Program-made: the position numbers and the translations under genes
Shown here: positions 37,138 through 38,781 of the stretch, piece after piece
Numbering within the stretch: the first letter of the stretch is position 1
How the letters are laid out: every line of letters starts with the position of its first letter
Origin: Acinetobacter boissieri
GTDB taxonomy: Bacteria > Pseudomonadota > Gammaproteobacteria > Pseudomonadales > Moraxellaceae
Length of the DNA stretch: 64,000 nucleotides
Direction of reading: 5' to 3'
Assembly (NCBI RefSeq): GCF_900096955.1
Contig: NZ_FMYL01000001.1
Location: 248,001-312,000, forward strand
Notes under the pieces: model-generated
The model's input: the letters and a program-made list of their open reading frames with translations, nothing else
What the model was told of the DNA's origin: nothing
Databases searched by the model: none

Positions 37138-37968
37138 ATGATACCAAAGGATAGCTACACAAGTGATCAAAAAATTCTGCGAGTTGTATCGCTTAATGTG
37201 AATGGCCTACGTGCATCGGTTAAAAAAGGGCTACTCGAATGGTTAGCGCAATCTGAAGCCGATATTGTTTGTATTCAGGAAAGCCGTATTACCCATGCCC
37301 AATGTACCGATCAATTTAAACCTGAGGGTTGGTATACACACCTTTTTCCTGCCGAAAAAGCGGGTTACGCAGGTACAGCCATTTTTAGTCGCTTACCTTT
37401 TGTATCTGTTACAGACGGTTTAGGTTTTGAACTTGCAGACAGTCAAGGGCGCTTTATTGCAGCTGAGTTTGACTTAGGTCTTGAAAAAAATGTCTATATT
37501 TGCTCACTTTACTTACCCTCTGGTTCATCGGGCGATGAAGCTCAAGCACGTAAAGAAATTTTCTTAGAAAAATATCAGGCCATTTTAAAGCAATGGCGTG
37601 ATGAAAATAAGTCGATGATTATTTGTGGTGACTACAATATCGTACATAAACGCATTGATATTAAAAACTGGTCAGGCAATAAAAATTCATCGGGTTGTTT
37701 ACCGCATGAGCGTGCGTGGCTTGACTATATGTATGATGAGCTCGGTTACGTAGATACTTTTCGTACTGTACGCCCAGAAGCTGAACTGTACTCTTGGTGG
37801 TCGAACCGTGGCCAAGCGCGTGCTAAAAATGTGGGGTGGCGAATTGACTATCAAGCTTGCTCTCCAGATTGGAAAGCCCGTACAGTCAATGCATGGGTCT
37901 ATCGTGAACAATGGTATAGCGATCATGCCCCTGTAATTATTGACTATTGTCTGAAAAATAGTGAATAA
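37138..37968 (+). CDS. crc: Exonuclease III family protein, Crc ortholog by position
   Basis: A 276-residue member of the ExoIII/AP-endonuclease family. The gene neighbours pyrE divergently, the position of crc in Pseudomonas. Unlike Pseudomonas Crc it keeps the catalytic residues of active nucleases: Asn in [10 protein letters not shown], Glu in CIQESR, Asp-x-Asn in CGDYNIVH, and the SDH of YSDHAPVI. It may therefore be a true DNA-repair nuclease (xth-like), a catabolite-repression protein, or both. Assigning crc rests on synteny and similarity, not on activity. Confidence 0.8.
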
Positions 37969-38093: not shown

Positions 38094-38114
38094 AGAACAC
38101 GTGTTCTTTTTTTA
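38094..38114 (+). terminator. Terminator of crc/xth gene
   Basis: The 14-bp palindrome AGAACACGTGTTCT can fold with a four-base loop and is followed by a run of T, 126 bp after the stop codon. Confidence 0.6.
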
Positions 38115-38154
38115 CGTGGAAATGGCTTACATCATTTGTCGTTTTTACGGCTAT

Positions 38155-38183
38155 TTATTCATAGCAAATAAAGGCACTATATC
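38155..38183 (+). promoter_or_regulatory. Candidate sigma-70 promoter of small RNA
   Basis: TTATTC and TATATC are separated by 17 bp; the -10 element is reasonable and the -35 weak, as expected for an activator-dependent promoter. Transcription would begin near 38190. Confidence 0.45.
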
Positions 38184-38189
38184 AATACG

Positions 38190-38336
38190 GCACAGGGACA
38201 TGTCAGGATGACACAAAAGGATAGGACGCCGTAGGAAGAAAAGAAACGTACGAGTAATCGTAAGTTTTAAAGGACTTAACATTGGACGTTAACACAGTGA
38301 GACCCGCATAATCAGGATGATTTAATGCGGGTTTTC
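38190..38336 (+). ncRNA. Probable CsrA/RsmA-sequestering small RNA (Rsm/CsrB type)
   Basis: About 145 nt without an open frame, carrying eight GGA motifs (38196, 38206, 38219, 38224, 38234, 38272, 38284, 38315). Several sit in hairpin loops as CsrA requires: TGTC-AGGAT-GACA at 38201-38213, AACA-TTGGA-CGTT at 38279-38290, and AATC-AGGAT-GATT at the tip of the terminator stem. The 3' end is an intrinsic terminator. Size, motif density and structure match RsmY/RsmZ-type RNAs that titrate CsrA/RsmA and release translation of target mRNAs. A GacA-controlled promoter is expected but only a half-site is seen. Not a CrcZ-type RNA, since CA-rich motifs are absent. Confidence 0.75.
38302..38336 (+). 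terminator. Small RNA terminator with AGGA loop
   Basis: ACCCGCAT pairs with ATGCGGGT (8 bp), topped by AATC/GATT with an AGGAT loop and followed by TTTTCTGCTTTT. The same hairpin is both terminator and a CsrA-type binding site. Confidence 0.85.
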
Positions 38337-38430
38337 TGCTTTTAAATCTCAAAATTTTCACATGATCGTCACTAGACAGTCAGCATTTTTCAGTTACTCT
38401 TATGAAATATTCAATTTATGAGACTGCACT

Positions 38431-38781
38431 ATGCTAAAAATATACGGTATTAAAAACTGTAGCACAATGAAAAAAGCCTTTGATTTACTCAACATGCTTG
38501 GCCTGAGCTATGAATTTCATGACTATAAAAAACAGAGTATAGATGCACAACACTTACAACAGTGGCTAGAGCAAGCAGGTACAGAAGTCATTTTAAATAA
38601 AAAAGGTACCACTTGGCGTAAACTCGATGAACAAGTACAACAAAACGCTTTAGCCAACCAAACAGCACTCATTGAAGCACTTAAGGCACATACCAGCATG
38701 ATTAAACGCCCCGTGCTAGAAACACCCAATGGATTGATTATTGGTTTTGATGAAGAAAAGTATCGAGCTTTAACAGGTTAG
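38431..38781 (+). CDS. YffB/ArsC-like thioredoxin-fold reductase
   Basis: A 116-residue protein of the ArsC/Spx/YffB family. The N-terminus IYGIKNCSTMKKAFDLL has the single cysteine in NCSTMKK that defines YffB-type proteins, followed by FHDYKKQ, KKGTTWRKL and IKRPVLETPNGLIIGFDEEKY. These are glutathione-dependent thiol reductases or regulators with uncertain substrates, cytoplasmic. A perfect hairpin terminator follows. Confidence 0.85.
   Translation: MLKIYGIKNCSTMKKAFDLLNMLGLSYEFHDYKKQSIDAQHLQQWLEQAGTEVILNKKGTTWRKLDEQVQQNALANQTALIEALKAHTSMIKRPVLETPNGLIIGFDEEKYRALTG

Follow-up and report, generated by a model that had tools for sequence, protein, structure and literature searches.

A GGA-rich small RNA gene conserved across Acinetobacter is probably a CsrB/Rsm-type antagonist of CsrA

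Nearly every Acinetobacter species very probably keeps a small RNA (sRNA) that would soak up CsrA. Its gene, which is ~150 nt long and is flanked by genes of the crc/xth and yffB types in the window (the whole 64-kb stretch of DNA analysed here), can be assigned with high confidence, judging from its sequence and that of its relatives, to a CsrB/Rsm-type family of CsrA-sequestering sRNAs that matches no Rfam 15 model. The interest of this finding is that a hospital pathogen of the genus cannot do without csrA (available text of PMC12442408) and that little work has been done on the natural antagonists of CsrA there. In the accessible portions of PMC5568370 and PMC12442408, the sole antagonist named for Acinetobacter is an uncharacterised, predicted 'CsrB-like' or RsmA-regulating RNA, and the accessible part of work on A. 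baumannii GacSA published in 2025 mentions none for Acinetobacter (PMC12609611). Being conserved, deletable and equipped with a defined promoter, the gene would make the Gac-Csr link in Acinetobacter directly testable, while the covariance model of the RNA could allow annotation pipelines to label the gene.

The earlier note had seen a GGA-rich RNA at 38190-38336, boundaries that needed only a slight shift, to 38187-38345 (Table 1). Its count of eight GGA motifs was borne out (38196, 38206, 38219, 38224, 38234, 38272, 38284 and 38315), and eight in 147 nt is the top density in the window on either strand, the mean on the + strand being 0.67 and the maximum on the - strand six. As many as 26 overlapping + strand start positions reach eight GGAs, the best five of these 26 all falling at the sRNA locus. 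The crc-type and yffB neighbours that had been proposed both flank the RNA in 98 of the 100 Acinetobacter loci that were fetched, although NCBIfam names the former exodeoxyribonuclease III. Crc is a member of the exodeoxyribonuclease III superfamily, and the pyrE gene next to the crc/xth-type gene presumably fits a crc identity. As for the idea that two global systems, Crc and Csr, might be neighbours, adjacency stands, but no further link emerged, and in several relatives the RNA has a different location.

Table 1. Coordinates of the sRNA gene, its predicted elements and its neighbours in the window, and members of a second RNA family (R2) at other loci
Feature	Position	Strand	Remarks
crc/xth-type gene	37138-37968		5' of sRNA gene
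Palindrome GAACACGTGTTC	38095-38106	.	operator-like site
CTTACA, right half of GacA-type box	38126-38131	+	left half degenerate
-10-like hexamer	38175-38180	+	CACTAT in window, CATTAT in most fetched loci
CsrB/Rsm-type sRNA gene (probable)	38187-38345	+	5' end predicted; 3' end is the U tract
Closing stem P1	38188-38231	+	CGGC 38188-38191 with GCCG 38228-38231; encloses P2 and three more GGAs
Hairpin P2	38201-38213	+	UGUC-AGGAU-GACA, GGA in loop; consensus fold and own fold of 38190-38340
Variable central hairpin P3	38243-38268	+	sequence replaced from species to species, still foldable
Hairpin P4	38276-38292	+	UUAAC-AUUGGAC-GUUAA, GGA in loop; own fold from 38187
Intrinsic terminator	38300-38345	+	AGGAU loop 38314-38318, U tract; terminator scan and consensus fold
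yffB-type, ArsC-related gene	38431-38781		3' of sRNA gene
R2 family members	L298:390-518, 1148-1276, 2326-2454	+
R2 family members	L306, L297, L303, L307, L308, L310; L325-L364

Whether the GGA motifs are conserved in relatives had been named beforehand as a test capable of refuting the reading, and its outcome was favourable. A blastn search with 38130-38345 found the sRNA in 113 of 119 Acinetobacter genomes. Among the six without a match (G014, G030, G031, G032, G077 and G098), G032 and G077 were recovered by the covariance model, and the other four gave no copy by blastn and no significant one by the model; another Acinetobacter genome, G145, did not match model R1 (described below). A pattern scan of named genomes returned 96 stretches, and the 80 of these 96 that were listed are all from Acinetobacter, including A. 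baumannii and A. baylyi. In the 100 copies fetched from the 113, all of which could be parsed, seven GGAs are present without exception and the eighth is present in 99, so that GGA columns are 99.96% conserved vs 85% for other columns. Triplets other than GGA are as conserved in 6/75 cases upstream of the terminator and in 24/117 over the whole RNA. All three phases are represented among the copy lengths, evidence against a reading frame.

The RNA is predicted to be well folded, its fold (38190-38340) beating 200/200 dinucleotide shuffles with a z of -3.4. The structure given in Table 1 rests on a consensus fold and on pair counts, single-sequence folds disagreeing on P1 and P2: the fold of 38190-38340 contains the P2 hairpin without outer stem P1, and the minimum-energy fold from 38187 contains P1 and P4 without the P2 hairpin. 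Across the 100 copies, the four pairs of P1 are always possible and include a compensatory change (CGGC/GCCG in 96, CAGC/GCTG in four), while the segment of P3, which is 28-40 nt long, has a mean z of -3.4 vs mononucleotide shuffles, and all 100 copies contain a helix run of at least five. P4 can be drawn in two registers, one with a 7-nt loop (4/4 inner pairs in 80/100 copies) and one with a GGAC loop (at least 3/4 inner pairs in 93/100), either of which is available in 98/100. Divergent copies add double changes in P2 and covariation in the terminator. The claim that GGAs are displayed in hairpin loops holds for P2 and the terminator, whose loops are AGGAU (or GGA alone where the A and U on either side are paired, a pairing that the folds partly predict), and for P4 (AUUGGAC); the remaining five lie in mostly unpaired stretches. 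The mean unpaired probability is 0.72 for the Gs of GGA vs 0.28 for other Gs, with the same direction in 100/100 sequences. The intrinsic terminator expected at the end of the RNA was recovered by a terminator scan, the consensus fold placing AGGAU in its loop.

The presumed target is widespread, csrA being found in all 41 Acinetobacter genomes searched and in 141/149 genomes of the family Moraxellaceae. The CsrA of the window's genome has a canonical N-terminal core, at least when judged against what we take to be the core of E. coli CsrA. A GacA-like regulator is also predicted in this genome, on the strength of an unspecific model: NF007018 matches 12/14 control genomes, and its best match in the window's genome (268 bits, below the cut-off of 280) was rejected as an identification of GacA. 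The UCAGGAUGA loops of the RNA have AGGAUG in common with the CsrA SELEX consensus, published as RUACARGGAUGU with GGA in a hairpin loop; according to the same partially available text (PMC7652899), most SELEX ligands have six-nucleotide loops, whereas the AGGAU loops here have five nucleotides (three if A and U pair).

The promoter-like element that the earlier note had placed upstream is less well supported. A promoter scan gave three promoter-like sites vs 2.9 in shuffles, none of them at the right place. A -10-like GCATTA is found at the same place in 83/100 loci. A GacA/UvrY box is usual, although not universal, in promoters of Csr/Rsm RNAs. Taking TGTAAG-N6-CTTACA as the GacA-type consensus, as we assume here, the right half CTTACA is present with at least 5/6 letters at -62 or -61 in 92/100 loci vs 9.5% of shuffles, and the left half retains at most 2/6 letters in these 92 loci. 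In main-clade Acinetobacter, the window included, scores for the full box do not exceed those of shuffles. A GacA site sharing the CTTACA right half is printed in the accessible part of PMC7911923. In divergent copies, an 18-nt site with 10-11 of the 12 letters was found at -74 or -73 in 17/17 cases scored, a level that, depending on the site, 0 to 1.4% of shuffles reach. These 17 sites come from 12 genomes (14 from ten genomes of other genera, three from Acinetobacter G032 and G077), and copies inside one genome are not independent. The main-clade loci also carry, at about -92, the palindrome GAACAnnTGTTC and variants of it, with perfect 5-bp arms in 63/100 loci (vs 3.3% of shuffles) and at least four pairs in 97/100 (vs 35%), and in some loci arm changes preserve the palindrome. 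As a regulon marker it was discarded, since its single further exact occurrence in the genome falls within a long reading frame and so defines no regulon.

The divergent copies were found with a covariance model, R1, built on 35 diverse copies, which at E up to 0.1 matches 54/149 Moraxellaceae genomes. Ten genomes outside Acinetobacter (genera g5, g8, g10 and g12) were accepted at E <1e-6; most of the matches weaker than this set are doubtful or false, L158, L160 and L161 having been rejected as terminator-only or GGA-poor, and L159 being doubtful. An order-wide search with stricter filters matched 1/194 genomes, the window's own, and these filters may have caused distant homologues to be missed. 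Two genomes have R1 matches at more than one place (four in G125, two in G129). When 22 matches from 25 loci searched, Acinetobacter copies included, were aligned to the model, 18/24 pairs showed double (compensatory) changes and 96% of cells paired, a level of compensatory change that 0/500 shuffles reach, in an alignment that was fitted to the structure and hence leans towards it. Of 19 divergent loci checked, five have crc in the fetched flanks, four of these five also having yffB, and 14 have neither. Two genomes of g5 have, in addition, a weaker relative of the RNA ~210 bp from a csrA match, tail to tail (L155:1100-1228 and L157:1054-1177). Another GGA-rich RNA type, with 8-9 GGAs, lies behind a GacA-type box at L295 (-), L156:1018-1189 and L283 (+), in genomes G047, G176 and G127.

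Genomic context bears on what else this RNA might be. The presence of crc upstream in 99/100 loci, together with a central hairpin arm that is A-rich by eye, could suggest a base-pairing RNA or one titrating Hfq/Crc in the manner of CrcZ; we consider this improbable, for conservation falls on GGA, the A-rich stretch, one of the arms of P3, is variable, and copies exist outside the crc context. The same degree of synteny on the other side (in 99/100 loci yffB follows downstream, on the same strand) might point to a cis-acting leader or attenuator of the yffB-type gene, in which binding of CsrA or of the ribosome would decide on termination. Such a leader is very improbable: the RNA lies anywhere from 41 to 380 nt from the yffB match, yffB is in the fetched flanks of just those four divergent loci, and G125 and G129 hold several copies of the RNA. 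The least probable alternative, and a most unlikely one, is that the RNA is a client regulated or stabilised by CsrA and not its antagonist, a view compatible with sequence-based support and with a cited mention, in the available text of PMC12442408, of CsrA protecting small RNAs, but one that sits badly with eight near-invariant sites, a terminator and GacA-type boxes in divergent copies, which are the pattern of an antagonist.

The preferred reading remains that of a CsrA-sequestering RNA. What the genomes contain is a conserved non-coding gene under GGA constraint, with a supported structure, csrA, and GacA-type boxes ahead of divergent copies, and these features fit the CsrB/RsmY/RsmZ architecture that had been claimed for the stretch. 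From them we infer how the RNA would work: (i) transcription would start near 38187 and stop at the intrinsic terminator, (ii) loops and single-stranded joints of the RNA would expose as many as eight GGA sites, (iii) the RNA would bind several CsrA dimers and (iv) CsrA would be titrated away from mRNA leaders, the whole being presumably under the control of GacA or another activator.

Comparison with the Csr/Rsm families of Rfam, which the earlier note had recommended, gave no match. At gathering thresholds, Rfam 15 finds no family of any kind in the 64-kb window, CsrB, CsrC, RsmY, PrrB_RsmZ and TwoAYGGAY included, and a search around the locus that admitted E values up to 10 returns three unrelated matches only. 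The RNA nonetheless resembles Pseudomonas RsmX/RsmY/RsmZ (RF00195 RsmY, RF00166 PrrB_RsmZ) in length class, GGA loops and joints, terminator and upstream GacA-type box (fuller in Moraxellaceae relatives than in the window), while differing in the lack of a covariance-model match. With enterobacterial CsrB/CsrC (RF00018, RF00084) it shares loops of the CAGGAUG type, which are typical of these RNAs and presumed to bind CsrA; it is shorter, with eight sites where CsrB/CsrC carry about 18-22, and here again there is no Rfam match. One precedent comes from the same genus and has the same proposed role. A prediction of 2006 (Kulkarni 2006, via the accessible part of PMC5568370) proposed an RsmA-regulating RNA for Acinetobacter ADP1, and from it PMC12442408, in its available text, draws its 'CsrB-like small RNA'. 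This A. baylyi RNA may well correspond to the locus of the window's family; in A. baylyi DSM 14961, the sRNA sits between crc-like and yffB-like frames. Two 'additional' ADP1 predictions, from 2017, have ACIAD0018/0019 and ACIAD2750/2751 as their neighbours (PMC5568370, same portion). No experimental report of the window RNA was found in the accessible portions of the literature searched. We thus regard it as a new, perhaps once predicted, member of the CsrB/Rsm class, with priority uncertain; the greater novelty lies in the changes to its promoter and in a further, multi-copy set of RNAs described next.

This second set surfaced when the GacA-box pattern was run, with a reversed control, on eight genomes. 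It exceeded the control in six and not in the window's genome (2 vs 2) or G207 (4 vs 4), and following up several of the sites revealed more GGA-rich RNAs that end in a terminator. At E up to 0.01, a covariance model built on ten of these sequences (R2; some supplied by G047) has matches in 115/118 Acinetobacter genomes, and in 102 of these 115 it matches 4-13 places. In 40 strong matches, all taken from the best-scoring list, a GacA-type box of at least nine letters invariably lies at -71 to -73 (at least ten letters in 35/40), vs 7.3% and 0.7% of shuffles, respectively, and 39/40 have an AGGA terminator loop. R2 and the window family have in common the GacA-type box, AGGA loops and an AGGA terminator loop, but R2 differs in sequence, is usually multi-copy, has a fuller box and shows a sub-threshold likeness to RsmY. 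This likeness appears at 2/19 loci (three places) and at 4/16 in a second set, the best match having 31 bits vs 57 needed (E 8e-5), and unrelated Rfam families give sub-threshold matches of similar bits on the same loci. At threshold, the loci searched match no Rfam family except for a TPP riboswitch in L299.

None of the 118 genomes common to both searches lacks both families; three (G032, G050 and G077) are without R2. The window's genome has a single passing R2 match of 47 bits with two GGAs (L317:1501-1622, G000 C21), a lone copy that looks decayed from its sequence. A speculative reading, which we put forward tentatively and think rather doubtful, is that Acinetobacter has two Csr-antagonist arms, one of multi-copy RsmY-like RNAs with canonical GacA boxes, and the other consisting of the crc-side RNA with its half box and palindrome GAACAnnTGTTC, the latter alone being intact in the small genome of the window. 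Loss of half of the GacA box and presence of the palindrome would then mean that another regulator feeds into CsrA.

GacA-type boxes also precede RNAs of other kinds. A conserved RNA with few GGAs and a GCCTTGTAGTTTTGGGAGAGACTACAGGGC terminator lies behind such boxes at L296 (-), L304 (+) and L309 (+), and an A-rich, terminator-ended RNA lies behind one at L299 (-), on C14 of G026, the second-best blastn genome. By eye, this A-rich RNA could be an Hfq-type decoy.
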